From Antedon mediterranea (lineage: Eukaryota > Echinodermata > Crinoidea > Comatulida > Antedonidae), in NCBI RefSeq assembly GCF_964355755.1, contig NC_092670.1:38551795-38615794 (forward strand): 64,000 nucleotides of DNA, in the 5' to 3' direction. The notes under the pieces are model-generated. The model saw nothing but the letters and a program-made list of their open reading frames with translations, was not told the origin of the DNA and searched no databases. Each line of letters begins with the position of its first letter. Position 1 is the stretch's first letter. The translations under genes were made by a program, and so were the position numbers. Shown here in pieces: positions 5,601 to 39,177 of this stretch.

Positions 5601-6085
5601 ATAAGTTTTTACAAACACTATTCATCTTGATGTTTAGATAAGACCATATTTTATAGTTTATAGTTAATTTTGTTTTTGTTTGCTTAGTTTAGTTATTCAT
5701 GTCTTTATTTTTCTATAATGTTCTGCATTGTTTGCTGGACCGCACTGCATACTGTGAGTGCCACTGATACAAAGGTGTATATGGTCAACAAATAAATAAT
5801 GAATAAAGTCTTTTTTTTTTAAAGTAAAAAAAAATTAGGATTAAAACATGGTTACACATTTCTTGTTCTTACAACACAGTGGTACTAACATTTTTTTTAA
5901 ACACCAGTATAGTGTAAAGTCATTAATATTATGACTGTACACTTATCTTTTTTCTTTTAAACGATTGCTAAAACCCGAACAAGGACTTAACAACAAACCA
6001 AGGATAAGAACAAAATGCACGAAATCAGGAAACCTGGATTTACTTTCCAGGGGCCAGAGCCTACAAAGATGTCCTTCGTAAAACT

Positions 6086-6147: not shown

Positions 6148-6237
6148 ATGTCCCAACGATACTTGCTTCAAGCTTTCCTACTATTGGCTATTTGTATGAC
6201 GTCATCGGCTTTTATTTTAAATTGGTTCGGAAATAAT
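6148..6237 (+). CDS. Gene 1 exon 1: signal peptide
   Basis: Thirty codons begin with MSQRYLLQAFLLLAI, a basic start followed by a Leu/Ala core and a small-residue site (TSSA) before residue 22. This is a standard secretory signal peptide. The exon ends in phase 0 at a clear donor (GTAAGT). The start was chosen because it is the first ATG after the TATA box and it opens the signal sequence. A CRE-like palindrome TGACGTCA (6197-6204) happens to lie within the coding sequence. Confidence 0.85.
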
Positions 6238-21200: not shown

Positions 21201-24200
21201 AGGAACGGGTGCTGAAATTGTATCAGGGCAAGATGGTAAAGATACTGAACCAAAAGATTCTGGTGAAGATGAAGAGCCGTCTGGTGAAGTTGATACTGAT
21301 GCTCCAGATTCAGGAACTGATGGTACTGCAGGTGAAACACCAACTAGTGGTGGCATGGGTGCTGAAATTGTATCAGGGCAAGATGGTAAAGATACTGAAC
21401 CAAAAGATTCTGGTGAAGATGAAGAGCCATCTGGTGAAGTTGATACTGATGCTCCAGATTCTGGAACTGATGGTGCTGCAGGTGAAACACCAACTAGTGG
21501 TGGCATGGGTGCTGAAATTGTATCGGGGCAAGATGGTAAAGATACTGAACCAAAAGGTTCTGGTGAAGATGAAGAGCCAGAGCCGTCTGGTGAAGTTGAT
21601 ACTGATGCTCCAGATTCTGGAACTGATGGTGCTGCAGGTGAAACACCAGCTAGTGGCGGCACGGGTGCTGAAATTGTATCAGGGCAAGATGGTAAAGATA
21701 CTGAACCAAAAGATTCTGGTGAAGATAAAGAGCCATCTGGTGAAGTTGATACTGATGCTCCAGATTCAGGAACTGATGGTACTGCAGGTGAAACACCAAC
21801 TAGTGGTGGCATGGGTGCTGAAATTGTATCGGGGCAAGATGGTAAAGATACTGAACCAAAAGATTCTGGTGAAGATGAAGAGCCATCTGGTGAAGTTGGT
21901 ACTGATGCTCCAGATTCTGGAACTGATGGTGCTGCAGGTGAAACACCAACTAGTGGTGGCATGGGTGCTGAAATTGTATCGGGGCAAGATGGTAAAGATA
22001 CTGAACCAAAAGATTCTGGTGAAGATGAAGAGCCGTCTGGTGAAGTTGATACTGATGCTCCAGATTCAGGAACCGATGGTGCTGCAGGTGAAACACCAGC
22101 TAGTGGAGGAACGGGTGCTGAAATTGTATCAGGGCAAGATGGTAAAGATACTGAACCAAAAGATTCTGGTGAAGATGAAGAGCCGTCTGGTGAAGTTGAT
22201 ACTGATGCTCCAGATTCAGGAACTGATGGTACTGCAGGTGAAACACCAACTAGTGGTGGCATGGGTGCTGAAATTGTATCGGGGCAAGATGGTAAAGATA
22301 CTGAACCAAAAGATTCTGGTGAAGATGAAGAGCCATCTGGTGAAGTTGATACTGATGCTCCAGATTCTGGAACTGATGGTGCTGCAGGTGAAACACCAAC
22401 TAGTGGTGGCATGGGTGCTGAAATTGTATCGGGGCAAGATGGTAAAGATACTGAACCAAAAGATTCTGGTGAAGATGAAGAGCCAGAGCCGTCTGGTGAA
22501 GTTGATACTGATGCTCCAGATTCTGGAACTGATGGTGCTGCAGGTGAAACACCAGCTAGTGGCGGCACGGGTGCTGAAATTGTATCGGGGCAAGATGGTA
22601 AAGATACTGAACCTAAAGATTCTGGTGAAGATAAAGAGCCATCTGGTGAAGTTGATACTGATGCTCCAGATTCAGGAACTGATGGTACTGCAGGTGAAAC
22701 ACCAACTAGTGGTGGCATGGGTGCTGAAATTGTATCGGGGCAAGATGGTAAAGATACTGAACCAAAAGATTCTGGTGAAGATGAAGAGCCATCTGGTGAA
22801 GTTGGTACTGATGCTCCAGATTCTGGAACTGATGGTGCTGCAGGTGAAACACCAACTAGTGGTGGCATGGGTGCTGAAATTGAATCGGGGCAAGATGGTA
22901 AAGATACTGAACCAAAAGATTCTGGTGAAGATGAAGAGCCGTCTGGTGAAGTTGATACTGATGCTCCAGATTCTGGAACTGATGGTGCTGCAGGTGAAAC
23001 ACCAACTAGTGGTGGCATGGGTGCTGAAATTTCAACTGGTGCGACTCAACCAAGTGGTCCATATCTTGATGCTGAAGGTAGATGATTGTTATTTTATTAA
23101 TGTATATTGTACTGCATAATTTTGTAATAATGTTTTATATTTTAATTATTTACTCCAAAGTGTATATGTATGTGTACATCTATACAATTACAATTGTTAC
23201 AACTGTAAAACAATGCAACCATTAATGTAATAATAATTCTTAACTTGTTACTTTATAAAGGTTATTGCTGGACACAATGGTTTGATGACGAGAATGGTGG
23301 TGAGGTATCTCCATCAGCTCAATTTGAAAGTGAATTTATCACAGACATTTTCGCAATGTATCCAACACAGAGCTGTAGATATCCTACAGGGATTAACTGT
23401 CAAACAATTGATGGTATTTCTTACGACCAAACCTCTCAAAACGTCCAATGTGACGCAAGATTTGGTTTGAAGTGTGTGAACAACCAAGGCGAAACATGTT
23501 TAAACTATAAGATTCGCCTTGTTTGTGCTGAGTTATGTAGTCAGGAAGGAGTACCAGAATTGATAACAGATGCTGATGGATCGCAACCAGGTGGCGGAGC
23601 GAGTGGAACAGGATCTGACAGCACCAGTGTCACAGATTCTGGCACAGACTCCGAAACATCTGGTACTGGTATAAGTGAAGAAAACAGTAAAATAGTAACT
23701 GAAGTTACTACTGGAACAAACGGTGCTTCAGTAGGACCACTCCCCAGTATATCAGGTAAATTAATAGTTGATTACTGAATAATAGATTCAATTTAGATAT
23801 AAGTTCTTTGGAAATTTTGTAACGATTTTATTTAAAATAAAATGTTGAAAAATTGTGTCATTAACAGAAATGCTAAAATTGTTAAATCAATTTAATTTAA
23901 CTTTCTGCATTTTTAGACTACTGTTGGACACAATGGTTTGATGATGAAAATGGTGGTAATGTTTCTCCTTTTAACAAATATGAGATTGAATCTATTGATG
24001 ACATCTATGCAAGATATCCAACTTTGAGTTGCAAGAACCCTAAAGGAATCCAATGTCATGCTCCCAGTGGAAAGTATGATCACAATGTTCAATGTGATAC
24101 AGTCTTTGGCTTAAGATGTACAAACACCAAAGAAAAAACATGTATCAATTACAGAATTCGACTCATCTGCCCAGAATTATGTAGTCAACAGGGAGTTACA

Positions 24201-27200
24201 GATTCAGGCTCTATGGCAGGACAAGGTGGCATAGATTCTGGTTCAACAACTGGAGGATCACACACCAGTGGAGGGATGAGTGGAACAGTTGTATCTGGTG
24301 GTAGTGATGGTACAGACTCTGGAGCATCCGGTGCTACTGGAGGATCACAAACCAGTGGAGGCATGAGTGGAACAGTTGTATCTGGTGGAACAGACTCTGG
24401 AGCATCAGGTGCTACCGGAGGATCACAAACCAGTGGAGACATGAGCGGAACAGATGTATCTGGTGGTAGTGATGGTACAGACACTGGAGCATCCAGTGCT
24501 ACTGGAGGATCACAAACTAGTGGAGGCATGAGTGGAACAGTTGTATCTGGTGGTACTGATGGTACAGACTCTGGAGCATCAGTTGCTGCTGGAGGATCAC
24601 AAACCAGTGGAGGCATGAGTGGAACAGATGCATCTGTTGGTACTGATGGTACAGATTCAGGAGCATCAGGTGCTACTGGAGGATCACACACCAGTGGAGG
24701 AATGACTGGAACAGTTGTATCTGGTGGTACTGATGGTACAGACTCTGGAGCGTCCGGTGCTACTGGAGGATCACAAACCAGTGGAGGCATGAGTGGAACA
24801 GATGTATCTGGTGGTACTGAAATTTCAGAAGGTGAATCCCAACCAAGTGGTCCTTATCTTGATGCTGCAGGTAGATTATTTTATTGTTATTATAGAATTC
24901 CATATTAAATACTTTAGTTTACCTTTTTTATCTTTATTTCAATCAAATGAAAACAAGTTTTAATATGGAAATTTATTATTATTATTATTGTATTTTTATT
25001 ATCATCATAATTACAAGTCAAATTGGGTTGTTTAATTTTGTATAAACATTTTGAAATGATAAACAATATACATACATTACAACTATAAAAGCAAAACAAA
25101 GATAAATATATGATATCATTCTTAACTTATTGCTTTTGGTAGGTTATTGCTGGACACAATGGTTTGATGACGAGAATGGTGGTAACGTATCTCCATCAGC
25201 TCAATTTGAAAGTGAATTTATCACAGACATTTTCGCAATGTATCCAACACAGAGCTGTAGATATCCTACAGGAATTAAATGTCAAACAATTGATGGTATT
25301 TCTTACGACCAAACCTCTCAAAATGTGCAATGTGACGCAAGATTTGGTTTGAAGTGTGTCAACAACCAAGGCGAAACATGTTTAAATTATAAGATTCGCC
25401 TTGTTTGTGCTGAGTTATGTAGTCAGGAAGGAGTACCAGAATTGATAACAGATGCTGATGGATCGCAACCAGGTGGCGGAGCGAGTGGAAAAGGATCTGA
25501 CAGCACCAGTGTCCCAGATTCTGGCACAGACTCCGAAACATCTGGTACTGGTATAAGTGAAGAAAATAGTAAAATAGTAACTGAAGTTACTACTGGAACA
25601 AACGGTGCTTCAGTAGGACCACTCCCCAGTATATCAGGTAAATTAATAGTTGATTACTGAATAATAGATTCAATTTAGATATAAGTTCTTTGGAAATTTT
25701 GTAACGATTTTATTTAAAATAAAATGTTGAAAAATTTTGTCATTAACAGAAATGCTAAAATTGTTAAATCAATTTAATTTAACTTTCTGCATTTTTAGAT
25801 TACTGTTGGACACAATGGTTTGATGATGAAAATGGTGGTAATGTTTCTCCTTTTAACAAATATGAGATTGAATCTATTGATGACATCTATGCAAGATATC
25901 CAACTTTGAGTTGTAAAAACCCTAAAGGAATCCAATGTCATGCTCCTAGTGGAAAGTATGATCACAATGTTCAATGTGATACAGTCTTTGGCTTAAGGTG
26001 TACAAACACCAAAGAAAAAACATGTATCAATTACAGAATTCGACTCATCTGCCCAGAATTATGTAGTCAACAGGGAGTTACAGATTCAGGCTCTATGGCA
26101 GGACAAGGTGGCATAGATTCTGGTTCAACAACTGGAGGATCACACACCAGTGGAGGGATGAGTGGAACAGTTGTATCTGGTGGTAGTGATGGTACAGACT
26201 CTGGAGCATCAGGTGCTACTGGAGGATCACAAACCAGTGGTGGAGGCATTAGTGGTACAGTTGTATCTGGTGGTAGTGATGGTACAGACTCTGGAGCATC
26301 AGGTGCAACTGGAGGAACACACACCAGTGGAGGAATGAGTGGAACAGTTGTATCTGGTGGTACTGATGATACAGACTCTGGAGCATCCGGTGCTACTGGA
26401 GGATCACACACCAGTGGAGGAATGAGTGGTACAGTTGTATCTGGTGGTACTGATGGTACAGATTCTGGAGCATCCGGTACTACTGGAGGATCACAAACCA
26501 GTGAAGGAATAAGTGGTACAGTTGTATCTGGTGGTACTGATGATACAGACTCTGGAGCATCCGGTGCTACTGGAGGATCACACACCAGTGGAGGAATGAG
26601 TGGTACAGTTGTATCTGGTGGTACTGATGATACAGACTCTAAAGCATCCGGTGCTACTGGAGGATCACAAACCAGTGAAGGAATAAGTGGTACAGTTGTA
26701 TCTGGTGGTACTGATGGTACAGATTCTGGAGCATCCGGTACTACTGGAGGATCACACACCAGTGGAGGCATGAGTGGAACAGTTGTATCTGGTGGTACTG
26801 ATGGTACAGATTCTGGAGCATCAGGTTCGACTGGAGGATCACAAACCAGTGGAGGCATGAGTGGAACAGTTGTATCTGGTGGTACTGATGGTACAGACTC
26901 TGGAGCATCAGGTGCTACTGGAGGATCACAAGCCAGTGGAGGCATGAGTGGAACAGTTGTATCTGGTGGTACTGATGGTACAGACTCTGGAGCATCAGGT
27001 GCTACAGGAGGATCACAAACCAGTGGAACAGTTGTGCCTGGTGGTACAGGAGTAAAGATACCCACTGTTACAGGTACTTTAAGGATTATTACCAATAACC
27101 AAAATATTATTAAAAAACCATTTTAAATGAAACAACAGTTTACAGTATTGTTTCAATGTAAAAAAAATTAACTAAATAGGAAAATTTATTTATACAATTT

Positions 27201-30200
27201 AAATTTACAACATACTTATATTTGAAACACTATTTTTATTTGACAGGTTTCTGTTGGACACAGTGGTTCGACGATGAAAATGGTGGCAATGTTGATCCAT
27301 CTGCTCAATATGAAATTGAGTCTATTGACGACATCTTTGCACAATATCCAACATTAAGTTGTAAAAACCCTAAGGGAGTCCAATGTCAAACAAACAATGG
27401 TGCTTACGATCAGTCAGTCCAGTGTGATGTAGCATTTGGTTTAAGGTGTACCAATAGTGAAGGAAAGACTTGTGCAAATTACATGATCCGATTTGTTTGC
27501 CCAGAATTGTGCGGCCAAGGAGGAGCTACAGATTCAGGCTCCATGGGCGGACAAGGTGGAATAGATTCTGGTTCAACAACTGGAGGATCACACACCAGTG
27601 GAGGCATGAGTGGAACAGTTGTATCTAGTGATACTGATGGTACAGATTCAGGAGCATCAGGTGCTACTGGAGGATCACAAACCAGTGGAGGCATGAGTGG
27701 AACAGTTGTATCTGGTGGTACTGATGGTACAGACTCTGGAGCATCAGGTGCTACTGGAGGATCACAAACCAGTGAAGGCATGAGTGGAACAATTGTATCT
27801 GGCGGTACTGATGGTACAGACTCTGGAACCTCAGGTGCTACTGGTGGATCACAAGCCAGTGGAGGCATGAGTGGAACAGTTGTATCTGGTGGTACTGATG
27901 GTACAGACTCTGGAGCATCAGGTGCTACTGGAGGATCACAAACCAGTGGAACAGTTGTGTCTGGTGGTACAGGAGTAAAGATACCCACTGTTACAGGTAC
28001 TTTAAGGTTTATTACCATAATCAAAATACTATTAAAAAAACATTTTAAATGAAACAACATTTTACAGTATTGTTTCAATGTAAAAAAAAAAGAAACATAG
28101 CAGAAAAATGTATCTATACAATTTAAATTTACATCATGCTTATATTTTAAACATTATTTTTTTATTTGACAGGTTTCTGTTGGACACAGTGGTTCGACGA
28201 TGAAAATGGTGGCAATGTTGATCCATCTGCACAATATGAAACTGAGTCTATTGACGACATTTTTGCACAATATCCAACATTAAGTTGTAAAAACCCTAAG
28301 GGAGTCCAATGTCAAACAAACAATGGTGCTTACGATCAGTCAGTCCAGTGTGATGTAGCATTTGGTTTAAGGTGTACCAATAGTGAAGGAAAGACTTGTG
28401 CAAATTACATGATCCGATTTGTTTGCCCAGAATTGTGCAGCCAAGGAGGAGTTACAGATTCAGGCTCTATGGGAGGACAAGGTGGACTAGATTCTGGTTC
28501 AACAACTGGAGGATCACACACCAGTGGAGGCATGAGTGGAACAGTTGTATCTGGTGGTACTGATGGTACAGATTCAGGAGCATCAGGTGCTACTGGAGGA
28601 TCACAAACCAGTGGAGGCATGAGTGGAACAGTTGTATCTGGTGGTACTGATGGTACAGATTCTGGAGCATCAGACACTACTGGAGGATCACAAACCAGTG
28701 GAGGCATGAGTGGAACAGTTGTATCTGGTGGTACTGATGGTACAGATTCTGGAGCATCAGGTGCTACTGGAGGATCACAAACCAGTGGAACAGTTGTGTC
28801 TGGTGGTACAGGAGTAAAGATACCCACTGTGACAGGTAATTTAAGGTTTATTACCATAATCAAAATACTATTACAAAACCAATTTAAGTGAAACAACATT
28901 ATACAGTATTGTTTGAATGTAAGAAAAAATTAACTAAATAGAAAAATTTATTTATGCAATTTAAATTTACATCATGCTTATATTTGAAACATTATTTTTT
29001 ATTTGACAGGTTTCTGTTGGACACAGTGGTTCGACGATGAAAATGGTGGCAATGTTGATCCATCTGCTCAATATGAAATTGAGTCTATTGACGACATCTT
29101 TGCACAATATCCAACATTAAGCTGTAAAAACCCTAAGGGAGTCCAATGTCAAACAAACAATGGTGCTTACGATCAGTCAGTCCAGTGTGATGTAGCATTT
29201 GGTTTAAGGTGTACCAATAGTGAAGGAAAGACTTGTGCAAATTACATGATCCGATTTGTTTGCCCAGAATTGTGCGGCCAAGGAGGAGCTACAGATTCAG
29301 GCTCCATGGGCGGACAAGGTGGAATAGATTCTGGTTCAACAACTGGAGGATCACACACCAGTGGAGGCATGAGTGGAACAGTTGTATCTGGTGGTACTGA
29401 CGGTACAGATTCAGGAGCATCAGATGCTACTGGAGGATCACAAACCAGTGGAGGCATGAGTGGAACAGTTGTATCTGGTGGTACTGATGGTACAGACTCT
29501 GGAGCATCAGGTGCTACTGGAGGATCACAAACCAGTGGAGGCATGAGTGGAACAGTTGTATCTGGTGGTACTGATGGTACAGACTCTGGAGCATCAGGTG
29601 CTACTGGAGGATCACAAACCAGTGGAGGCATGAGTGGAACAGTTGTATCTGGTGGTACTGATGGAACAGACTCTGGAGCCTCAGGTGCTACTGGAGGATC
29701 ACAAGCCAGTGGAGGCATGAGTGGAACAGTTGTATCTGGGGGTACTGATGGTACAGACTCTGGAGCATCAGGTGCTACTGGAGGATCACAAACCAGTGGA
29801 ACAGTTGTGTCTGGTGGTACAGGAGTAAAGATACCCACTGTTACAGGTAATTTAAGGTTTATTACCATGATCAAAATACTATTAAAAAAACATTTTAAAT
29901 GAAACAACATTTTACAGTATTGTTTCAATGTAAAAAAAATAAACATAGGAGAAAAATGTATCTATACAATTGAAATTTACATCATGCTTATTATTTGAAA
30001 CATTATTTTTTTATTTGACAGGTTTCTGTTGGACACAGTGGTTCGACGATGAAAATGGTGGCAATGTTGATCCATCTGCTCAATATGAAATTGAGTCTAT
30101 TGACGACATTTTTGCACAATATCCAACATTAAGTTGTAAAAACCCTAAGGGAGTCCAATGTCAAACAAACAATGGTGCTTACGATCAGTCAGTCCAGTGT

Positions 30201-33200
30201 GATGTAGCATTTGGTTTAAGGTGTACCAATAGTGAAGGAAAGACTTGTGCAAATTACATGATCCGATTTGTTTGCCCAGAATTGTGCAGCCAAGGAGGAG
30301 TTACAGATTCAGGCTCCATGGGAGGACAAGGTGGAATAGATTCTGGTTCAACAACTGGAGGATCACACACCAGTGGAGGCATGAGTGGAACAGTTGTATC
30401 TGGTGGTACTGATGGTACAGATTCTGGAGCATCAGGTGATACTGGAGGATCACAAACCAGTGGAACAGTTGTGTCTGGTGGTACAGGAGTAAAGATACCC
30501 ACTGTTACAGGTAATTTAAGGTTTATTACCATAATCAAAATACTATTACAAAACCAATTTAAATGAAACAACATTATACAGTATAGTTTGAATGTAACAA
30601 AAAATTAACTAAATAGAAAAATTTATTTATGCAATTTAAATTTACATCATGCTTATATTTGAAACATTATTTTTTATTTGACAGGTTTCTGTTGGACACA
30701 GTGGTTCGACGATGAAAATGGGGACAATGTTGATCCATCTGCTCAATATGAAATTGAGTCTATTGACGACATCTTTGCACAATATCCAACATTAAGTTGT
30801 AAAAACCCTAAGGGAGTCCAATGTCAAACAAACAATGGTTCTTACGATCAGTCAGTTCAGTGTGATGTAGCATTTGGTTTAAGGTGTACCAATAGTGAAG
30901 GAAAGACTTGTGCAAATTACATGATCCGATTTGTTTGCCCAGAATTGTGCAGCCAAGGAGGAGTTACAGATTCAGGCTCCATGGGCGGACAAGGTGGAAT
31001 AGATTCTGGTTCAACAACTGGAGGATCACACACCAGTGGAGGCATGAGTGGAACAGTTGTATCTGGTGGTACTGATGGTACAGATTCAGGAGCATCAGGT
31101 GCTACTGGAGGATCACAAACCAGTGAAGGCATGAGTGGAACAATTGTATCTGGCGGTACTGATGGTACAGACTCTGGAGCATCAGGTGCTACTGGAGGAT
31201 CACAAACCAGTGGAGGCATGAGTGGAACAGTTGTATCTGGTGGTACTGATGGTACAGACTCTGGAGCATCAGGTGCTACTGGAGGATCACAAACCAGTGG
31301 AGGCATGAGTGGAACAGTTGTATCTGGTGGTACTGATGGTACAGACTCTGGAGCCTCAGGTGCTACTGGAGGATCACAAGCCAGTGGAGGCATGAGTGAA
31401 ACAGTTGTATCTGGGGGTACTGATGGTACAGACTCTGGATCATCAGGTGCTACTGGAGGATCACAAACCAGTGGAACAGTTGTGTCTGGTGGTACAGGAG
31501 TAAAGATACCCACTGTTACAGGTAATTTAAGGTTTATTACCATAATCAAAATACTATTAAAAAAACATTTTAAATGAAACAACATTTTACAGTATTGTTT
31601 CAATGTAAAAAAAATAAACATAGGAGAAAAATGTATCTATACAATTGAAATTTACATCATGCTTATATTTGAAACATTATTTTTTTATTTGACAGGTTTC
31701 TGTTGGACACAGTGGTTCGACGATGAAAATGGTGGCAATGTTGATCCATCTGCTCAATATGAAATTGAGTCTATTGACGACATCTTTGCACAATATCCAA
31801 CATTAAGTTGTAAAAACCCTAAGGGAGTCCAATGTCAAACAAACAATGGTGCTTACGATCAGTCAGTCCAGTGTGATGTAGCATTTGGTTTAAGGTGTAC
31901 CAATAGTGAAGGAAAGACTTGTGCAAATTACATGATCCGATTTGTTTGCCCAGAATTGTGCAGCCAAGGAGGAGTTACAGATTCAGGCTCCATGGGAGGA
32001 CAAGGTGGAATAGATTCTGGTTCAACAACTGGAGGATCACACACCAGTGGAGGCATGAGTGGAACAGTTGTATCTGGTGGTACTGATGGTACAGATTCAG
32101 GAGCATCAGGTGCTACTGGAGGATCACAAACCAGTGAAGGCATGAGTGGAACAATTGTATCTGGCGGTACTGATGGTACAGACTCTGGAGCATCAGGTGC
32201 TACTGGAGGATCACAAACCAGTGGAGGCATGAGTGGAACAGTTGTATCTGGTGGTACTGATGGTACAGACTCTGGAGCATCAGGTGCTACTGGAGGATCA
32301 CAAACCAGTGAAGGCATGAGTGGAACAATTGTATCTGGGGGTACTGATGGTACAGACTCTGGAGCATCAGGTGCTACTGGAGGATCACAAACCAGTGGAG
32401 GCATGAGTGGAACAGTTGTATCTGGTGGTACTGATGGTACAGACTCTGGAGCATCAGGTGCTACTGGAGGATCACAAACCAGTGGAGGCATGAGTGGAAC
32501 AGTTGTATCTGGTGGTACTGATGGAACAGACTCTGGAGCCTCAGGTGCTACTGGAGGATCACAAGCCAGTGGAGGCATGAGTGGAACAGTTGTATCTGGG
32601 GGTACTGATGGTACAGACTCTGGAGCATCAGGTGCTACTGGAGGATCACAAACCAGTGGAACAGTTGTGTCTGGTGGTACAGGAGTAAAGATACCCACTG
32701 TTACAGGTAATTTAAGGTTTATTACCATAATCAAAATACTATTAAAAAAACATTTTAAATGAAACAACATTTTACAGTATTGTTTCAATGTAAAAAAAAT
32801 AAACATAGGAGAAAAATGTATCTATACAATTGAAATTTACATCATGCTTATTATTTAAAACATTATTTTTTTATTTGACAGGTTTCTGTTGGACACAGTG
32901 GTTCGATGATGAAAATGGTGGCAATGTTGATCCATCTGCTCAATATGAAATTGAGTCTATTGACGACATTTTTGCACAATATCCAACATTAAGTTGTAAA
33001 AACCCTAAGGGAGTCCAATGTCAAACAAACAATGGTGCTTACGATCAGTCAGTCCAGTGTGATGTAGCATTTGGTTTAAGGTGTACCAATAGTGAAGGAA
33101 AGACTTGTGCAAATTACATGATCCGATTTGTTTGCCCAGAATTGTGCAGCCAAGGAGGAGTTACAGATTCAGGCTCCATGGGAGGACAAGGTGGAATAGA

Positions 33201-36200
33201 TTCTGGTTCAACAACTGGAGGATCACACACCAGTGGAGGCATGAGTGGAACAGTTGTATCTGGTGGTACTGATGGTACAGATTCTGGAGCATCAGGTGAT
33301 ACTGGAGGATCACAAACCAGTGGAACAGTTGTGTCTGGTGGTACAGGAGTAAAGATACCCACTGTTACAGGTAATTTAAGGTTTATTACCATAATCAAAA
33401 TACTATTACAAAACCAATTTAAATGAAACAACATTATACAGTATAGTTTGAATGTAACAAAAAATTAACTAAATAGAAAAATTTATTTATGCAATTTAAA
33501 TTTACATCATGCTTATATTTGAAACATTATTTTTTATTTGACAGGTTTCTGTTGGACACAGTGGTTCGACGATGAAAATGGGGACAATGTTGATCCATCT
33601 GCTCAATATGAAATTGAGTCTATTGACGACATCTTTGCACAATATCCAACATTAAGTTGTAAAAACCCTAAGGGAGTCCAATGTCAAACAAACAATGGTG
33701 CTTACGATCAGTCAGTCCAGTGTGATGTAGCATTTGGTTTAAGGTGTACCAATAGTGAAGGAAAGACTTGTGCAAATTACATGATCCGATTTGTTTGCCC
33801 AGAATTGTGCAGCCAAGGAGGAGTTACAGATTCAGGCTCCATGGGCGGACAAGGTGGAATAGATTCTGGTTCAACAACTGGAGGATCACACACCAGTGGA
33901 GGCATGAGTGGAACAGTTGTATCTGGTGGTACTGATGGTACAGATTCAGGAGCATCAGGTGCTACTGGAGGATCACAAACCAGTGAAGGCATGAGTGGAA
34001 CAATTGTATCTGGCGGTACTGATGGTACAGACTCTGGAGCATCAGGTGCTACTGGAGGATCACAAACCAGTGGAGGCATGAGTGGAACAGTTGTATCTGG
34101 TGGTACTGATGGTACAGACTCTGGAGCATCAGGTGCTACTGGAGGATCACAAACCAGTGGAGGCATGAGTGGAACAGTTGTATCTGGTGGTACTGATGGT
34201 ACAGACTCTGGAGCCTCAGGTGCTACTGGAGGATCACAAGCCAGTGGAGGCATGAGTGGAACAGTTGTATCTGGGGGTACTGATGGTACAGACTCTGGAG
34301 CATCAGGTGCTACTGGAGGATCACAAACCAGTGGAACAGTTGTGTCTGGTGGTACAGGAGTAAAGATACCCACTGTTACAGGTAATTTAAGGTTTATTAC
34401 CATAATCAAAATACTATTAAAAAAACATTTTAAATGAAACAACATTTTACAGTATTGTTTCAATGTAAAAAAAATAAACATAGGAGAAAAATGTATCTAT
34501 ACAATTGAAATTTACATCATGCTTATATTTGAAACATTATTTTTTTATTTGACAGGTTTCTGTTGGACACAGTGGTTCGACGATGAAAATGGTGGCAATG
34601 TTGATCCATCTGCTCAATATGAAATTGAGTCTATTGACGACATCTTTGCACAATATCCAACATTAAGTTGTAAAAACCCTAAGGGAGTCCAATGTCAAAC
34701 AAACAATGGTGCTTACGATCAGTCAGTCCAGTGTGATGTAGCATTTGGTTTAAGGTGTACCAATAGTGAAGGAAAGACTTGTGCAAATTACATGATCCGA
34801 TTTGTTTGCCCAGAATTGTGCAGCCAAGGAGGAGTTACAGATTCAGGCTCCATGGGCGGACAAGGTGGAATAGATTCTGGTTCAACAACTGGAGGATCAC
34901 ACACCAGTGGAGGCATGAGTGGAACAGTTGTATCTGGTGGTACTGATGGTACAGATTCAGGAGCATCAGGTGCTACTGGAGGATCACAAACCAGTGAAGG
35001 CATGAGTGGAACAATTGTATCTGGCGGTACTGATGGTACAGACTCTGGAGCATCAGGTGCTACTGGAGGATCACAAACCAGTGGAGGCATGAGTGGAACA
35101 GTTGTATCTGGTGGTACTGATGGTACAGACTCTGGAGCATCAGGTGCTACTGGAGGATCACAAACCAGTGGAGGCATGAGTGGAACAGTTGTATCTGGTG
35201 GTACTGATGGTACAGACTCTGGAGCCTCAGGTGCTACTGGAGGATCACAAGCCAGTGGAGGCATGAGTGGAACAGTTGTATCTGGGGGTACTGATGGTAC
35301 AGACTCTGGAGCATCAGGTGCTACTGGAGGATCACAAACCAGTGGAACAGTTGTGTCTGGTGGTACAGGAGTAAAGATACCCACTGTTACAGGTAATTTA
35401 AGGTTTATTACCATAATCAAAATACTATTAAAAAAACATTTTAAATGAAACAACATTTTACAGTATTGTTTCAATGTAAAAAAAATAAACATAGGAGAAA
35501 AATGTATCTATACAATTGAAATTTACATCATGCTTATATTTGAAACATTATTTTTTTATTTGACAGGTTTCTGTTGGACACAGTGGTTCGACGATGAAAA
35601 TGGTGGCAATGTTGATCCATCTGCTCAATATGAAATTGAGTCTATTGACGACATCTTTGCACAATATCCAACATTAAGTTGTAAAAACCCTAAGGGAGTC
35701 CAATGTCAAACAAACAATGGTGCTTACGATCAGTCAGTCCAGTGTGATGTAGCATTTGGTTTAAGGTGTACCAATAGTGAAGGAAAGACTTGTGCAAATT
35801 ACATGATCCGATTTGTTTGCCCAGAATTGTGCAGCCAAGGAGGAGTTACAGATTCAGGCTCCATGGGAGGACAAGGTGGAATAGATTCTGGTTCAACAAC
35901 TGGAGGATCACACACCAGTGGAGGCATGAGTGGAACAGTTGTGTCTGGTGGTACTGATGGTACAGATTCAGGAGCATCAGGTGCTACTGGAGGATCACAA
36001 ACCAGTGGAGGCATGAGTGGAACAATTGTATCTGGCGGTACTGATGGTACAGACTCTGGAGCATCAGGTGCTACTGGAGGATCACAAACCAGTGGAGGCA
36101 TGAGTGGAACAGTTGTATCTGGTGGTACTGATAGTACAGACTCTGGAGCATCAGGTGCTACTGGAGGATCACAAACCAGTGGAACAGTTGTGTCTGGTGG

Positions 36201-39177
36201 TACAGGAGTAAAGATACCCACTGTTACAGGTAATTTAAGGTTTATTACCATAATCAAAATACTATTAAAAAAACATTTTAAATGAAACAACATTTTACAG
36301 TATTGTTTCAATGTAAAAAAAAAATAAACATAGGAGAAAAATGTATCTATACAATTTAAATTTACATCATGCTTATATTTTAAACAGTATTTTTTCATTT
36401 GACAGGTTTCTGTTGGACACAGTGGTTCGACGATGAAAATGGTGGCAATGTTGATCCATCTGCTCAATATGAAATTGAGTCTATTGACGACATCTTTGCA
36501 CAATATCCAACATTAAGTTGTAAAAACCCTAAGGGAGTCCAATGTCAAACAAACAATGGTGCTTACGATCAGTCAGTCCAGTGTGATGTAGCATTTGGTT
36601 TAAGGTGTACCAATAGTGAAGGAAAGACTTGTGCAAATTACATGATCCGATTTGTTTGCCCAGAATTGTGCAGCCAAGGAGGAGTTACAGATTCAGGCTC
36701 TATGGGAGGACAAGGTGGAATAGATTCTGGTTCAACAACTGGAGGATCACACACCAGTGGAGGCATGAGTGGAACAGTTGTATCTGGTGGTACTGATGGT
36801 ACAGATTCAGGAGCATCAGGTGCTACTGGAGGATCACAAACCAGTGGAGGCATGAGTGGAACAATTGTATCTGGTGGTACTGATAGTACAGACTCTGGAG
36901 CATCAGGTGCTACTGGAGGATCACAAACCAGTGGAGGCATGAGTGGAACAGTTGTATCTGGTGGTACTGATGGTACAGACTCTGGAGCATCAGGTGCTAC
37001 TGGAGGATCACAAACCAGTGGAGGCATGAGTGGAACAGTTCTATCTGATGGTACAGATTCTGGAGCATCAGACACTACTGGAGGATCACAAACCAGTGGA
37101 GGCATGAGTGGAACAGTTGTATCTGGTGGTACTGATGGTACAGACTCTGGAGCATCAGGTGCTACAGGAGGATCACACACCAGTGGGGAAATGACTGGAA
37201 CAGTTGTATCTGATGGTACTGATAGTACAGATTCTGGAGCATCAGGTGTTACTGGTGGATCACAAACCAGTGGAGGCATGAGTGGAACAGTTGGTTCTGG
37301 TAGTACTGATGGTACAGACTCTGGAGCATCCGGTGCTACTGGTGGAATTAGTGGTCCTGATACATTGCCAACTGCAGGCACAGTTTTAGTAGCAGGTTAG
37401 TGAATTGCTCTTTCTCTTTTTATTGTGATTAATATTGTACTTGGTGAGGAACAATACATGATTGTATCCATTTGTTTTTTTTTAATACAGTTTCTTGTAC
37501 AACAAGTTTGTGTGATGCATTGAGTATGCCAGTCTTTGATATTACCCGTGACGTCGTAGATGTCTCTAAATACTACGTCATGTGTATGGCTGGCAATGCG
37601 TGCAATCCATTTTTCGCCTGCTCCGTCATTAGTGCCATGGTAACAGAATATGAACAAAAATCATCTAGATGTTTGAGTTGGAGAAAAGAAGTAGGATGCG
37701 GTAAGTAATTATTTATGTTTTATTGAAGTTTTATAATTATTCTATAATGGCGCTATTATAAGATATCTTGTACTTATTTTATCGTAATTGTTTGTAATTC
37801 TGGATCTTCGCCAGATGATTTTAGAGTAACCATTTTTTAAAATAATTTATCTTTAAGTTAATTAATTGGTACACTGTGTTTTCTAGATACATCTTGCTCC
37901 GCTGGTCTTGAATTCAAGGAATGTGGATGTGTCAACTCTGTGTGTAGTGTTAGTGACGTGTGTGAACCATGGCAGAGACGCTCCGGATGTGGGTGCGGCA
38001 AAGGATTCTATTTCAAAAACGGCGTTTGTGAATCTTGTGGTAAGCTCTATTTTACTCTTTTGCAGTAAACAATGCTGGGTTTTAAGTTCTACAGAAGTTA
38101 CAAAATTGTTGTCTTTGGAACCATCGCAACGTTTGAATAAAATAAAATCTTTTAAACCTAATTCTAAAAACATCTCATAGGTAGACCAACTACAATTGTC
38201 TGGACACCCAAGTCAAATAAAAATAAACAGCATGCAGTATCTTGTCTTTTGACAAACCGTATGTCATACTGTATAATATATCTCTCATCACAGTATACAA
38301 TATTGATATAGAATCCCCAAAACAATCCAGTGTATGCATTTGCAAATATATGTACCACATTGTGTAATCAAAACATCAGTATTAAAGTACACCCTCGAAG
38401 TATACTCAATGCATTATGCAAACATTCTCATGTTGTTATTTTTGTATTTCTTTTTCATTTTTCAGAACATTATGATGGTAGCTTGGATGTTGTACCAGCA
38501 TCAACCGCAGGTTAGTTTTTCTAATTGTGTTTTTATATTAAGCTGGTACTAGATTCTTTCTAGTACATCATCCACTAGTATATCATTAAATTGTACATGA
38601 TGCAATAGTGCATGATGCAATAGTACATCATGCAATAGTACATAATCCAATAGTACATCATGTTATATTACATCATCCAATAGTGCATCATTTAATAGTA
38701 CATCATTCAATAGTACATCATTTAATAGTAATGTGTAATTCCTTCATCTTCCTTAACATCTTTACCAAGGATATTCAATTATTACACTTGGAAACAAACT
38801 TCAATGGTGTAATTTAATCTTTGTTAAATGTAGGCCTACGTTTAACAGATATTTGAATCTTTTTTACAGGAAATTGTCGCCACCGTCGAGTTGAGAAAGT
38901 ACACAACGTACAGTTCGATGATGGATCAGTGTGCAATGCAACATTTGCTGTTGATGAATGCAGCGGTAAATGCGCGTCACGATCAGCAACAAATGGAATG
39001 GTCGAAAACATGATGGCTTCACGTTCGCAAACATGCGGATGTTGTAGACCTTTTGAACCCGTTGGAAAAATGATTCCTGTTCAATGCGACGCTAGTGGTG
39101 CCATCAAGGAAATCAATGTAGAAGTGTTCGATAGTTGTGTTTGTGAACAAAACCGGGATTGTACATTTCAAGATTAA
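6148..39177 (+). CDS. Gene 1: large secreted gel-forming mucin-like protein (VWD/C8/TIL, 16 CysD modules, cystine knot), spliced, complete
   Basis: This is a spliced gene with 37 predicted exons totalling 17,979 nt, or 5,992 codons plus stop. Every junction is GT...AG and all phases are consistent from ATG to TAA, which is strong internal support. Domain order with approximate residues: signal peptide 1-22, acidic linker to 52, TIL/E to 146, VWD 147-303, C8 304-415, TIL 416-494, TIL'/E to 606, VWD 607-771, C8 772-867, TIL 868-931, aromatic linker to 959, 16 CysD modules with tandem repeats 960-5754, C8-like 5755-5824, TIL-like to 5875, linker to 5890, cystine knot 5891-5992. Families of this kind (MUC2, MUC5, VWF) are secreted and polymerise by disulfide bonds through D assemblies and the C-terminal knot; that function is inferred here. 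Gene 1 lacks the VWD and C8 of D1 and the VWD of D4, both present in gene 2. The tentative exons are 8049-8112 and 19962-20045. Confidence 0.85.
7672..7969. mobile_element. Two adjacent MITE-B copies (CGTTGCGTC terminal repeats)
   Basis: The left copy (about 7672-7804) starts near 'CTTTGTTCACATGAACACTAG' and ends at 'GCGTTGCGTCTTAGTGGAAC'. The right copy (about 7809-7969) starts 'TTGGTTCCCAATTGGACGCA' and ends 'CGCTGCGTTCCTATAGTGG'. The ends are inverted copies of one another and match the element at 55224-55342. No coding capacity is present. Confidence 0.65.
8049..8112 (+). CDS. Gene 1 exon 2 (tentative): short acidic linker
   Basis: The exon is inferred. Exon 1 ends in phase 0 but the TIL exon at 9440 needs one carried base, so at least one exon must lie between them. 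This 64-nt segment follows a good acceptor (pyrimidine tract, then CACAG), stays open, and gives KETDADKDSEDVF... with 21 codons plus one base, exactly the phase required. The donor (GTTCGT) is weak. Gene 2 likewise has short linker exons after its signal peptide. Without transcript data another small exon in 6238-9439 remains possible. Confidence 0.45.
9238..9388. mobile_element. MITE-A copy in the intron before the first TIL exon
   Basis: Starts AAGCTCTGTCCACTAC and ends GATAGGTAGACAGAGCTT, with the characteristic interior (GTGCCCATATATGGACATGATGATGTCAT and an inverted counterpart). It lies about 50 bp upstream of the exon acceptor. A further copy lacking its left terminal repeat lies at 7198-7320. 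Confidence 0.85.
9440..10821 (+). CDS. Gene 1 exons 3-4 (9440-9677, 10775-10821): TIL/E module
   Basis: Exon 3 (238 nt) encodes a trypsin-inhibitor-like Cys-rich fold: IECPSDMEFIECGGPC, CxxTC, CIGYCKCKDG, GNRCIPLGECRCEYDG, ending ...DVINVDCNN. Exon 4 (47 nt) completes it with CTCNGDQWECTENKCG, the E-type tail found after TIL domains in VWF and mucins. The codon split across the junction (TG|T) restores a Cys. In gene 2 the matching exons (48085-48316, 48811-48860) follow VWD1-C8, so this is the residue of the D1 assembly. Confidence 0.85.
10270..10480. repeat. Short tandem duplication in intron (about 55 bp, 2 copies)
   Basis: Two copies of a GC-richer unit read 'GAGGAAGCAGYG...GTGCAGYCTACCGCCAGCAG' and then 'CCTGCTG...GATG'. 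They lie in a part of the intron that is also rich in GGCCTAGCCTAGGC motifs. The region is much more GC-rich than its surroundings and may be a young insertion. No function is evident. Confidence 0.5.
10995..11954 (+). CDS. Gene 1 exons 5-6 (10995-11320, 11810-11954): VWD domain of D2
   Basis: Exon 5 (326 nt) opens ATCWTAGLGSFKTFDNKYYE, matching the VWD start (GDPHxxTFDG in the family) in a diverged form: the usual GDPHY reads GLGSF. EGNCEHYLAKNC and the ending IFIEKPVYHTTK follow. Exon 6 (145 nt) carries VTLDIGIEILFDEQTRV and CGLCGTFNNNIDDEF, the CGLC motif and acidic Asn-rich loop of VWD. CGLC motifs in D assemblies are linked with disulfide exchange during polymer assembly in VWF and mucins. 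Exon lengths match gene 2 exons 10-11 (314 and 145 nt). Confidence 0.9.
11455..11681. mobile_element. MITE-A copy with an internal insertion
   Basis: Ends ACTCTGTCTGCACTATC and GATAGTGTAGACAGAGCTTT. The middle holds an extra block of about 75 bp with (ATCA)n and TTTATATAGCGCCATTCC, a motif seen again at 20150-20165 and so perhaps a fragment of another dispersed repeat. Confidence 0.75.
11988..12245. mobile_element. MITE-A inserted inside MITE-B
   Basis: A MITE-A copy (12062-12213, TCTGTCTACACTATCAAAC ... GATAGTGAAGACAGAGCTTT) interrupts a second element whose left part reads 'AGACGCAATGCAAGAATG' and whose right end reads 'CCTTGCGTTGCGTCCTAGG'. The flanking parts look like the two halves of a MITE-B copy. 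The nesting gives a relative age: MITE-A moved after MITE-B here. Confidence 0.6.
12391..14237 (+). CDS. Gene 1 exons 7-8 (12391-12558, 14070-14237): C8 domain
   Basis: Two 168-nt exons in phase 1-1. The first ends ...DDLCADLVHSLGPFSA, the second runs CHSKVNPDPYYAACQSDVC, then CSCAEGANCHCNIYSQYAADC and VSWRPTTKGC. The spacing of the Cys residues and the PYYxxC...C.C....C.C...YA..C order is typical of C8. The split of C8 over two exons of identical length recurs in gene 2 (50130-50297 and 51530-51697). The intron between holds MITE-A, a 15-bp minisatellite and inverted-repeat element T. Confidence 0.88.
12957..13102. mobile_element. MITE-A copy
   Basis: Starts CTGTCAACACTATCAAAC and ends TTTGATAGTGTAGACAGACC. 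Interior motifs GTGATGTGCCC and GGGGACATCACAC match the other copies in inverted order. Confidence 0.8.
13246..13320. repeat. 15-bp minisatellite, 5 copies (AAGCCTTAAGRAGGT)
   Basis: Five contiguous 15-bp units (13246, 13261, 13276, 13291, 13306), differing at one or two positions. The last unit has CCTAAAGG in place of CCTTAAGG. It lies within the C8 intron of gene 1. Confidence 0.92.
13740..14025. mobile_element. Inverted-repeat element T (copy 2)
   Basis: Shares with 55716-56050 the blocks 'TGTGACATAATAGTTATTC', 'CCGACCAAAAACTGTATTG' and the right end 'GGAGGACAATACATCTTTA'. The right end stops 45 bp before the acceptor of exon 8 (14070), so part of this intron's pyrimidine-poor flank is element-derived. 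The left end is degraded. Confidence 0.6.
14650..14791. mobile_element. MITE-A copy
   Basis: Starts at CTAAAGCACTGTCTACAC and ends AGTGTAAACAGAGCTTTA. TA flanks both ends of the AAGC...GCTT element, consistent with a TA target duplication as in Tc1/mariner-type elements. It lies 80 bp before the TIL exon at 14871. Confidence 0.85.
14871..16314 (+). CDS. Gene 1 exons 9-11 (14871-15108, 15524-15811, 16268-16314): TIL, then TIL'/E
   Basis: Exon 9 (238 nt): LVCPVGTQYSECHNTC, SSCGAQLSEVKCHDTC, CSCPPGMVFD, IPEDSCECQ. Exon 10 (288 nt): SCEKGSWNCISTGCYC then DCKLPNECQKTC, CFPGCQCSSGYVLDE, LPSDCSCYHGG. Exon 11 (47 nt): CSCSGGEWTCNTDKCQ. The order is TIL, E-like tail, second TIL, E-like tail, equal to the D2 TIL plus D' region of VWF-type proteins. 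Split TG|T codons join the exons and restore Cys. The matching gene 2 exons are 52053-52293, 53091-53372 and 54869-54918. Confidence 0.87.
15929..16082. mobile_element. MITE-A copy
   Basis: Starts TAACGCTCTGTCTACACTATC and ends ATAGTGTAGACAGAGCTTTA. It lies in the intron between gene 1 exons 10 and 11. Confidence 0.87.
16668..17823 (+). CDS. Gene 1 exons 12-14 (16668-16871, 17197-17381, 17719-17823): VWD domain of D3
   Basis: Exon 12: SCMAWGESHFTSFDGQMFDF and SGNCQYDLVSV, the VWD opening with GESHF in place of GDPHY. Exon 13: LVQGAPVVAPRGAGLSLRER, then IVDSCLGYTILWNRGTWLQV. Exon 14: VNGLCGNFDGNKTNDFQSRD and DFGNSWK. The CxxC motif is NGLC, so the first Cys is absent; gene 2 shows the same loss (GGLC) at the matching place. 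Exon lengths 204/185/105 match gene 2 198/185/108. Confidence 0.9.
17455..17650 (-). mobile_element. tRNA-like SINE copy (minus orientation) with a terminal hairpin
   Basis: Read on the minus strand, this matches 56400-56650: a segment with a B-box-like GGGTTC.AGTCCTG, then the sequence around TTTGTCTTTAGACAAATTACAAC. On the + strand the end forms a near-perfect inverted repeat: ACCCAAGGACCCTTGGATTG (17584 onward) pairs with CCAATCCAAGGGTCCTGGGT, with a 14-nt loop. It lies in the intron between the two last VWD exons. Confidence 0.6.
18035..19186 (+). CDS. Gene 1 exons 15-16 (18035-18323, 18995-19186): C8 and TIL of D3
   Basis: Exon 15 (289 nt) is a whole C8 domain: HRTCPDTSPIVVEPC, WAQKKCSVITGSKFRACHGL, PFYDKCVSDTCACDFGADCE, CMCTAIAAYAQECNEHGV, VSWRTDNLC. 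Exon 16 (192 nt) is TIL-like: MQCASAGAISGPECLQYSPC, VCGGTCIEGCCPKN, YNGVCIEPDDECPSCG. Exon 16 lacks the long Cys-rich tail of the other TIL exons. Both exons end in phase 1. Gene 2 has the same pair at 57255-57540 and in the first part of 57699-58562. Confidence 0.88.
18353..18589. mobile_element. MITE-A copy with internal duplication
   Basis: Starts CTAAAGCTCTGTCTACACTA and ends GATAATGTATACAGAGCTTTA. The block 'GACTAGTTT.ACAAAAA.GTGTGCCCAAATATGGTA' occurs twice inside, making this copy about 80 bp longer than usual. Confidence 0.8.
18818..18945. mobile_element. MITE-A copy, right end degraded
   Basis: Starts TTAAGCTCTGTCTACACTA and has GTGATGTGCCCAAATATGG and the matching GGGCGCATCACATTTTTT. 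The right terminal repeat is missing beyond about 18935. It ends some 50 bp before the TIL exon at 18995. Confidence 0.7.
19377..19870. repeat. 41-bp minisatellite, 12 copies
   Basis: Twelve contiguous 41-bp units with starts at 19381, 19422, 19463 and so on to 19832. The unit contains ACCCTGCCCATGACAGGAGT and AAACGGTGCTATGTCAGAC. Units are nearly identical (a few single-base changes such as CATCCTG and TACCC), so the array is young and probably length-variable between individuals. It sits in the intron just before the aromatic linker exon. Confidence 0.95.
19962..20045 (+). CDS. Gene 1 exon 17 (tentative): short aromatic-rich linker
   Basis: An 84-nt segment with a good acceptor (TTTTTGTAG) and donor (GTAAGT), phase 1-1. 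It encodes about 28 residues that include GITYSYRYYQFFWTI and ITWTYLGN, so over a third are Tyr, Phe or Trp. It has no Cys and no recognised domain. Because it is symmetrical in phase, skipping it leaves the frame intact. It is a candidate cassette exon, or a spurious one if transcripts do not support it. Confidence 0.55.
20315..23077 (+). CDS. Gene 1 exon 18: CysD 1 followed by an acidic 50-residue tandem repeat
   Basis: A 2,763-nt exon in phase 1-1. The first 90 or so codons are a CysD (WxxW) module: YCWTRWFDDENGGNVSPS, YPSLSCRN, QCDPSYGLRCTN, CYNYKIRFICSDLC. A Gly/Thr/Ser-rich segment follows, then two 18-residue units (GETPASGGMGAGTSGTAA) and 14 units of a 50-residue repeat with GETPTSGGMGAEIVSGQDGK, DTEPKDSGEDEEPSGEVDTD and APDSGTDGAA. 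The 150-bp unit is organised into two 906-bp blocks of six units (21181-22086 and 22087-22992). The repeats are strongly acidic (Asp/Glu) with Ser and Thr, unlike the repeats in the other CysD exons. A calcium- or water-binding gel segment is possible but is inference. Confidence 0.9.
20697..23022 (+). repeat. 150-bp coding tandem repeat with 906-bp higher-order structure
   Basis: The start GGTGAAACACC recurs every 150 bp (e.g. 21181, 21331, 21481), with two 156-bp units carrying an extra Glu-Pro (EPEP). Marker variants repeat in order: ASGGTG, TSGGMG, EPEP, DKEP, VGTD, with period six units. That is why units 3-8 and 9-14 form two copies of a 906-bp block. All unit lengths are multiples of three, so reading frames on both strands stay open. 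Confidence 0.93.
23261..24870 (+). CDS. Gene 1 exons 19-20 (23261-23755, 23917-24870): CysD 2 and CysD 3
   Basis: Exon 19 (495 nt): YCWTQWFDDENGGEVSPSAQ, YPTQSCRYPTGINCQ, QCDARFGLKCVN, CLNYKIRLVCAELC, then a short Ser/Gly/Thr linker without tandem repeats. Exon 20 (954 nt): YCWTQWFDDENGGNVSPFNK, YPTLSCKNPKGIQCHAPSGK, QCDTVFGLRCTN, CINYRIRLICPELC, followed by Gly/Ser/Thr-rich repeats of 25-29 residues built on SGGMSGTVVSGG and DGTDSGASGATGGSQT. Both are phase 1-1. The pair recurs 1,882 bp downstream. Confidence 0.92.
25143..27073 (+). CDS. Gene 1 exons 21-22 (25143-25637, 25799-27073): CysD 4 and CysD 5, duplicate of the previous pair
   Basis: Exon 21 has the same length as exon 19 (495 nt) and differs by a handful of bases. 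The intron (161 bp) is the same length as that at 23756-23916 and nearly identical. Exon 22 repeats exon 20 but carries more Gly/Ser/Thr repeat units (1,275 against 954 nt). All exon starts are shifted by exactly 1,882 bp. Both CysD modules keep the eight Cys and the CWTQW motif. Confidence 0.92.
27247..36229 (+). CDS. Gene 1 exons 23-32: tandem array of ten CysD + 29-residue repeat exons (CysD 6-15)
   Basis: Exons: 27247-27996, 28173-28835, 29010-29846, 30022-30510, 30685-31521, 31696-32706, 32882-33370, 33545-34381, 34556-35392, 35567-36229. Each starts FCWTQWFDDENGGNVDPS (GDNVDPS in the fifth and eighth), has eight Cys including YPTLSCKNPKGVQCQ, QCDVAFGLRCTN, CANYMIRFVCPELC, and continues into one to seven copies of an 87-bp repeat (TDGTDSGASGATGGSQ, TSGGMSGTVVSGG). 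Each ends with GVKIPTVTG. All are phase 1-1, so any number can be gained, lost or skipped in frame. Introns are 174-176 bp and nearly identical. CysD modules in vertebrate mucins mediate non-covalent cross-linking of the gel; the WxxW motif is a possible C-mannosylation site. Confidence 0.93.
29847..35566 (+). repeat. 2,860-bp segmental duplication within the CysD array
   Basis: Exon starts 30022, 30685 and 31696 recur as 32882, 33545 and 34556, each shifted by exactly 2,860 bp, and exon ends 30510 and 31521 shift likewise. Diagnostic variants travel with the block: the GDN variant CysD, the 489-nt short exon, the 175-bp intron with CTTATTATTT. The last exon of the second block is 174 bp (two 87-bp units) shorter, which shows later repeat loss or gain. 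Confidence 0.93.
36406..37395 (+). CDS. Gene 1 exon 33: last CysD (CysD 16) with diverged repeat tail
   Basis: A 990-nt exon with the same CysD opening as the array (FCWTQWFDDENGGNVDPS) and eight 25-29-residue repeats. The distal repeats are more diverged (VLSDGTDSGASDTTGGSQ, SGEMTGTVVSDG, SGTVGSGSTDG). It ends GISGPDTLPTAGTVLVAG in place of GVKIPTVTG, marking the end of the homogenised array. Confidence 0.92.
37491..38510 (+). CDS. Gene 1 exons 34-36 (37491-37700, 37887-38039, 38466-38510): C8-like, TIL-like and linker
   Basis: Exon 34 (210 nt): SCTTSLCDALSMPVFD, SKYYVMCMAGNACNPFFACS, RCLSWRKEVGCG, the second half of a C8 domain. Exon 35 (153 nt): SCSAGLEFKECGCVN, CSVSDVCEPWQRRSGCGCG, GFYFKNGVCESCG, a compact TIL-like unit. 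Exon 36 (45 nt): EHYDGSLDVVPASTAG, an acidic linker. All are phase 1-1. In VWF-type proteins a VWD domain precedes C8-TIL; here the C8 follows the CysD array directly, so the D4 VWD is missing. Confidence 0.8.
38592..38735. repeat. 15-bp minisatellite, about 9 copies (AATAGTACATCATGC)
   Basis: Imperfect 15-bp units containing CAATAGTRCATSATG run through the intron before the terminal exon. Units differ by single substitutions (CATAATCC, CATCATTT). No function is evident. Confidence 0.88.
38870..39177 (+). CDS. Gene 1 exon 37: C-terminal cystine knot (CTCK) and stop
   Basis: The exon encodes 102 residues with 11 Cys, starting GNCRHRRVEKVHNVQFDDG. It shows the cystine-knot ring CSGKC (C-x-G-x-C), the triple CGCC, VQCDASG and the final CVCEQNRDC. 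The stop TAA follows QD. In VWF and gel-forming mucins this domain forms intermolecular disulfides that dimerise the protein in the ER. It is about the usual size for CTCK (roughly 90-100 residues). Confidence 0.9.

Follow-up and report, generated by a model that had tools for sequence, protein, structure and literature searches.

The window, by which we mean the whole 64,000-nucleotide stretch of DNA that was analyzed, is free of any N and derives from a 354-Mb genome assembled in 18 contigs. On its plus strand lies a mucin-like gene in which TIL, VWD, C8, TIL, TIL, VWD, and C8 domains, in that order, are followed by 16 exons carrying CysD (WxxW) modules; this exon structure is predicted from the genomic sequence of one assembly. 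A neighboring mucin gene lies in tandem on its 3' side; it starts at about 41.4 kb and runs past the end of the window (64000).

Domain order and the CysD exon series

The segments of the array gene that flank its CysD exons, with their Pfam scores, are as follows.

9403-9678, plus strand: TIL (would be the TIL of D1), the most N-terminal mucin domain found; PF01826, 40.3 bits (cut-off 24.5)
10922-11371, plus strand: VWD (D2); PF00094, 55.3 bits, with a second VWD piece at about 11759-11959
14066-14242, plus strand: C8 (D2); PF08742, 52.7 bits
14861-15109, plus strand: TIL (D2); PF01826, 47.3 bits
15507-15812, plus strand: TIL (D'); PF01826, 42.4 bits
16658-16918, plus strand: VWD (D3); PF00094, 57.6 bits
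17999-18337, plus strand: C8 (D3); PF08742, 80.7 bits
37448-37705, plus strand: C8-like segment 3' of the array; PF08742, 16.4 bits, under the cut-off of 23.7
38857-39174, plus strand: cystine-knot-like C-terminus; DAN PF03045, 20.1 bits, under the cut-off of 22

The limits of the first TIL segment are those of a stop-to-stop open reading frame and not exon borders. The C8 of D1 was not found (no C8 match before window position 14069; 110 of 110 candidates scored, 104 matches), nor was there any VWD before position 11000 among the matches listed (150 of 233 candidates scored). By eye, a hydrophobic open reading frame begins near position 6150. At the other end, a stop codon directly after 39174 closes the open frame of the cystine-knot-like segment. 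Between coding segments just 5' of the CysD exons sits a 41-bp minisatellite (19375-19871; 12.1 copies, 97%).

The CysD exons themselves, in which n gives the size of the array exons as 489 + 87n bp, are as follows.

20315-23077, plus strand: exon 1; CysD and an acidic Ser-Gly linker in which a 150-bp repeat recurs about 14 times
23261-23755, plus strand: exon 2; with exon 3, the first copy of the 1,882-bp-offset repeat (23261-24870)
23917-24870, plus strand: exon 3; in the first copy of the 1,882-bp-offset repeat
25143-25637, plus strand: exon 4; with exon 5, the second copy of the 1,882-bp-offset repeat (25143-27073)
25799-27073, plus strand: exon 5; chimera, in the second copy of the 1,882-bp-offset repeat
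27247-27996, plus strand: exon 6; array, n=3
28173-28835, plus strand: exon 7; array, n=2
29010-29846, plus strand: exon 8; array, n=4
30022-30510, plus strand: exon 9; array, n=0
30685-31521, plus strand: exon 10; array, n=4
31696-32706, plus strand: exon 11; array, n=6
32882-33370, plus strand: exon 12; array, n=0
33545-34381, plus strand: exon 13; array, n=4
34556-35392, plus strand: exon 14; array, n=4
35567-36229, plus strand: exon 15; array, n=2
36406-37395, plus strand: exon 16; last array exon

The first-pass annotation had described one gene with sixteen CysD exons, the last eleven of them nearly identical, and both statements held. All 16 lie on the plus strand, score above the PF13330 cut-off in a genome scan, and have an AG acceptor, a GT donor, a length divisible by three, a phase-1 start, and an open frame. 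The proposed array coordinates (27247-37395) match those of exons 6 to 16, whose ten introns measure 174 to 176 bp each. On the CysD side of the 11 array exons, 14 of 330 columns (330 bp) are variable, and the 5' parts of these exons, including 100 bp of intron, share 93.3 to 100% identity. In exon 1, the coding 150-bp repeat (20871-23031) runs to 14.3 copies at 94% with a higher-order period of 456 bp and is acidic and Ser-Gly-rich.

Assignment to the Pfam CysD family rests on the profile and not on cysteine count: exon 6 matched Mucin2_WxxW (PF13330) over profile positions 1 to 88 with 55.7 bits (cut-off 22.4). A CysD profile built from 16 sequences (from this gene, the 5 outside the array and 4 of the 11 within it, plus 2 from the neighboring gene and 5 from other mucin loci, L001 to L003) matched solved MUC5AC, MUC5B, and MUC2 chains of nine distinct sequences (E 4e-17 to 6e-7), and a single array CysD searched against PDB sequences gave no match at E up to 0.01. 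An AlphaFold2 model of the CysD reached a mean pLDDT of 81.9, and its top PDB match in Foldseek was human MUC2 (7a5o; probability 1.00, TMq 0.63, E 7.7e-3); at E 0.001 this search with the predicted fold returned no PDB match. In an alignment counted by eye, there are 8 cysteines in the array CysDs, in both CysDs of the neighboring gene, and in one of L003, and 10 in those of L001 and L002. Five conserved disulfides, that is, ten cysteines, are reported for the CysD fold family (PMC11912381), a feature that the array CysDs lack; with 8 cysteines, they could form at most four internal disulfides.

Repeats, duplicated blocks, and chimeric exons

The linker part of the array exons consists of an in-frame 87-bp (29-codon) repeat. 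With a motif pattern, 60 stretches of the repeat were recognized across exons 3, 5, and 6 to 16, 56 of which were exactly 87 bp; the 44 stretches in exons 6 to 16 come in 20 different DNA and 14 different protein versions, and the 29-amino-acid unit contains 38% Ser plus Thr and no proline. Because each array exon holds 1 to 7 copies of this unit, successive modules are spaced by 663 + 87n bp within 2 bp (926, 837, 1012, 663, 1011, 1186, 663, 1011, 1011, and 839 bp), a regularity that replaces the fixed steps of 0.66, 1.0, and 2.86 kb proposed earlier.

Two blocks had been described as duplicated to the base. For the three-exon block, the 2,860-bp offset is exact and pairs exons 9 to 11 with exons 12 to 14, but the copies are not identical: the ungapped match (29342-32486) has 22 mismatches in 3,145 bp, only 8 of which fall in a 2,831-bp core (29480-32310; divergence 0.28%). 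The left side of the block lies inside exon 8, and the copies can be placed as follows.

29480-32339, plus strand: 2,860-bp block, first copy; placed to start where the low-mismatch core does, within the exon 8 repeats, its exact borders being uncertain
32340-35199, plus strand: 2,860-bp block, second copy; exons 12 and 13 and parts of exons 11 and 14

The two-exon repeat at an offset of 1,882 bp is likewise present and inexact, being ungapped over only 1,100 bp (23259-24358; 18 mismatches, 98.4%). A 1,011-bp step is also near-identical (33530-35172; 6 mismatches in 1,643 bp). On the left, the matches at offsets 1,882 and 1,011 begin close to splice acceptors. The right ends of the matches at offsets 2,860 (exons 11/14) and 1,011 (exons 14/15) were considered as crossovers within the repeats and rejected, since they fall where the 87-bp counts differ and so locate no crossover; only exon 5 and exon 8 therefore remain as within-exon switches. 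For kilobase repeats at 98 to 99.7% identity, chance is no serious alternative. When the genome was searched at the DNA level with one module, five matches came back, all at this locus and none of them array copies; as this search skips common words, it is uninformative on copy number.

Exon 5 is a clear chimera, of exon-3 type in its 5' part and of exon-6-to-15 type in its 3' tail and intron. The 5' part shares 98.6% identity with exon 3 and 67.1 to 68.6% with exons 6 to 16, whereas the 3' tail and intron share 42.0% with exon 3 and 89.5 to 91.4% with exons 6 to 15; because 87-bp repeats fill the region between the two parts, the switch of type falls within them. Exon 8 is probably chimeric as well. 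In its CysD, 1 of 332 positions differs from exon 6 and 3 to 9 differ from exons 7 and 9 to 15, while its intron differs at 2 positions from introns 10, 11, 13, and 14 and at 9 from intron 6; few differences lie behind this call, and introns may simply evolve faster. A grouping of the 3' end of exon 11 with exon 8 was dropped, as 99.2% identity against 98.8% for exons 10, 13, and 14 amounts to one difference.

The array introns fall into two types, A (after exons 6, 8, 10, 11, 13, 14, and 15) and B (after exons 7, 9, and 12), which diverge by 9.7% from each other and by 1.6% within A and 1.1% within B. Distances for intron k were correlated with those for the CysD of exon k+1 (Mantel r=0.62, p=1e-4) more strongly than with those for the CysD of exon k (r=0.33, p=0.04), also when exons 12 to 14 were left out (0.68, p=0.001, versus 0.20, p=0.24). 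A four-gamete test did not separate the two linkages, as incompatible site pairs numbered 2 of 70 between intron k and CysD k+1 and 3 of 84 between intron k and CysD k; given these similar counts, and with the same-exon pair physically farther apart, the Mantel contrast may reflect only the shorter distance. An intron-centered unit is thus not claimed as proven, the four-gamete test giving no clear difference. Also against a closer tie of intron k to CysD k+1, one silent CysD site (column 88) tracks exactly the type of the intron 3' of its own exon.

Probable growth of the array and competing explanations

We think it probable that the gene is functional, that it encodes a secreted protein of a bilaterian animal resembling gel-forming mucins, and that its CysD array has grown, and is probably still changing, by unequal exchange between misaligned modules; both the exchange and the secretion of the product are here inferred from genomic sequence. 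In such a protein, a chain of CysD modules with Gly/Ser/Thr-rich linkers between them would form the middle region. Misaligned modules would undergo unequal exchange, at least sometimes within the in-frame 87-bp repeats, which would yield hybrid exons with the frame kept. The suggestion of the first-pass annotation that the uniform 1-1 phase makes such changes safe is correct, and exchange within the exonic repeats, where the type of exon 5 switches, adds a second frame-safe route to that through the introns, the latter being safe because all exons are phase 1-1. Its proposal of recent duplication within the gene also agrees with what we found: intron sequence was duplicated together with the exons, the 2,860-bp offset is in exact register, and exon 5 is clearly and exon 8 probably chimeric. 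Unequal exchange is the best explanation, pointed to directly by exon 5 and probably by exon 8, and other routes may have contributed as well. Since the core of the 2,860-bp block has diverged by so little, segregating copy-number alleles are plausible in an outbred animal, and CysD copy number may plausibly be polymorphic between individuals.

Each CysD would, by analogy with MUC2, MUC5AC, and MUC5B, be a compact, disulfide-rich site at which the polymer docks or is cross-linked, for the most part non-covalently. CysD1 of MUC2 is reported to dock on adjacent beads of the filament, and duplicated CysDs have been proposed to serve further protein-protein contacts (PMC9169620, PMC11912381); docking was reportedly not observed for CysD1 of MUC5AC (PMC11912381). 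The array might on this analogy be a string of docking modules, with the number of 87-bp repeats corresponding to linker length and thereby setting the spacing between docking points.

Among the competing explanations, the one that carries some weight, though we hold it to be unlikely, is that the array is old, that gene conversion homogenizes its copies so that they look young, and that copy number may be fixed. Conversion would leave chimeras as well, and the divergence of 9.7% between intron types A and B exceeds that of the CysD parts grouped by preceding intron type, which is only 4.7% at silent sites; in counts, however, this gap is small (about 3 of 68 versus 17 of 173 per pair). An exact-register match of 2.8 to 3.1 kb without an indel, one that takes in the introns and the 87-bp counts of exons 9/12 and 10/13, is most simply read as one tandem duplication. 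It is less likely still that the second 2,860-bp copy, or more, is an assembly artefact, such as two haplotypes placed end to end. A divergence of 0.3 to 0.7%, as seen between the two copies, is within the possible range between two alleles of an outbred animal and would fit this explanation. However, the other modules are also in tandem, with distinct repeat counts and intron types, and the array would survive removal of one block; the window holds no N; and a second, larger array of modules, in a different mucus-type gene of this assembly, argues that such arrays are real here or that both are wrong.

That the array is decaying or non-coding, with no protein function, we regard as very improbable. 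Repeats can expand neutrally, and constraint on the 87-bp units is weak, 17 of 30 distinct changes being nonsynonymous (p=0.06). In the CysD part of the 11 array exons, by contrast, pN/pS is 0.17, and nonsynonymous changes account for 6 of the 14 variable columns versus 79% expected (binomial p=0.003); splice dinucleotides, reading frames, and divisibility by three are moreover intact throughout the 16 exons. The array exons thus look like working protein-coding sequence, and these counts indicate that the CysD codons were held under purifying selection while the copies built up. Under growth by unequal exchange, selection of this kind would keep the CysD amino acids as copies accumulate.

Linkers, related loci, and known CysD proteins

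The non-CysD part of exons 1 to 16 (3,019 amino acids) contains 33.7% Ser plus Thr, 28.5% Gly, 2.8% Pro, and 12.7% Asp plus Glu, against 49 to 82% Ser plus Thr, 11 to 17% Pro, and almost no Gly in stretches of L001, L002, and the neighboring gene. These linkers do not have the high Ser/Thr with clear proline that defines a PTS mucin domain, and for that reason the gene is not filed among the gel-forming mucins, although it would work like one. Nearly proline-free Gly/Ser/Thr linkers raise the question of how strictly a mucin-like gel former needs a PTS domain. Ser-Gly occurs 393 times in the linkers, 126 times with at least two acidic residues no more than four positions away, versus 150 +/- 10 and 41 +/- 6 in shuffled sequences, an excess that overstates independence because repeats multiply a few units; the most acidic linker part is the 150-bp repeat of exon 1. 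Such Ser-Gly-rich, partly acidic linkers resemble glycosaminoglycan attachment sites. A bolder combined proposal strikes us as doubtful at best: that the product would be a mucin-proteoglycan hybrid gel former, with glycosaminoglycan chains on its proline-poor linkers instead of or besides mucin-type O-glycans, and that the exonic 87-bp minisatellite would be the crossover site through which gel stiffness is set by CysD number and linker length, both of them heritable and variable within the population.

The neighboring gene resembles the array gene in its VWD/C8 assemblies, CysD exons, and 8-cysteine CysDs, and the D3 C8 segments share 48% identity over 102 positions. It differs in having only two CysD exons found in the window (58731 and 59454), more N-terminal VWD matches, a Thr/Pro-rich repeat region (59921-61867; 342-bp period, 49% Ser plus Thr, 11% Pro), and VWD after the repeats. 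Genome-wide, the 34 WxxW matches listed comprise 16 in the array gene, 2 in the neighboring gene, 3 near C1:14.85-14.88 Mb, 2 near C1:41.34 Mb, and 11 partial ones. The partial matches (profile positions 20-27 to 88; C1:25.25, C1:37.83, C3:9.15, C4:22.19, C6:8.03/8.06, C7:30.45, and C8:12.17/24.74 Mb), some with an internal stop, may reflect genes with a different exon structure, remnants of genes, or a separate family of genes. In the mucin gene at L001 (C1:14842000-14851000), a CysD exon is duplicated over 932 bp (L001 positions 3147-4078 and 4797-5728; offset 1,650, 28 mismatches). T/S/P repeats with a 27-bp period lie between the two copies and again after them.

On C3 (38096795-38152035, including L004 at 38120000-38129999) lies a large VWD/C8 module array in a gene that we presume to be FCGBP- or zonadhesin-like. 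At least 17 VWD matches with near-equal scores are spaced at about 1,722 bp; they are preceded by at least 13 at about 1,690 bp with one 5.3-kb gap, and the C8 matches correspond. Five units were compared: two show no difference over 1,721 bp, another departs from these two by 3 substitutions, a fourth departs from all the rest by 26 to 29, and the last, on the margin of an adjoining sub-array, by 685 to 689. Judged by these matches, the C3 array appears more extreme than the CysD array, and module amplification in mucus-type genes may be a wider trait of this genome.

CysD is reported to appear first in Bilateria, and together with PTS in Deuterostomia (PMC9169620); other genes of the present genome combine the two, so that the host may be a deuterostome, and a COX1 search gave no match. 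Among human mucins, nine CysD modules are given for MUC5AC, seven for MUC5B, and two for MUC2 (PMC11912381), and the earlier benchmark of usually up to about nine in vertebrate gel-forming mucins fits these numbers, but higher counts are reported for fish CysD proteins. Fish "Mucin-5AC" proteins that consist of CysD chains are listed with 6 modules in zebrafish, 19 in catshark, and 27 in little skate, and are described as differing in structure from human MUC5AC with its VWD and PTS (PMC11765562). The array gene shares with these fish proteins the long CysD chain, whose module number differs by lineage (PMC11765562), and differs in having VWD/C8/TIL domains and long repeat linkers. Among the matches listed in a literature search, with most subscription papers outside its coverage, no comparable non-vertebrate CysD array appeared in titles or abstract beginnings.

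Human MUC5AC, MUC5B, and MUC2 are alike in having VWD-C8-TIL assemblies followed by CysD modules with repeat linkers between them, and they match in CysD profile and predicted fold. They differ in exon structure, the mucin domain being reported as one large exon in human MUC2, MUC5AC, MUC5B, and MUC6 (PMC9712336) as opposed to one exon per CysD here; in the PTS of the human gel-forming mucins, as against the Gly-rich, Pro-poor linkers of the array gene, in which no C8 of D1 was found; and in the five disulfides, which need 10 cysteines, versus 8 counted by eye in the array. Variation in CysD copy number is itself already known, as the number of cys-domains and repeats of MUC5AC is reported to vary between humans (PMC10983947; also PMC11912381); here, each module has its own exon, with repeats inside the exons as likely exchange points. 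The array looks like a second route to a MUC5AC-type change in CysD number by recombination within the gene. Because its modules carry barcodes (the 87-bp count and the intron type, A or B), copy-number alleles could be typed exactly, and typed alleles would make it possible to ask whether CysD number alters the properties of mucus in another animal lineage.
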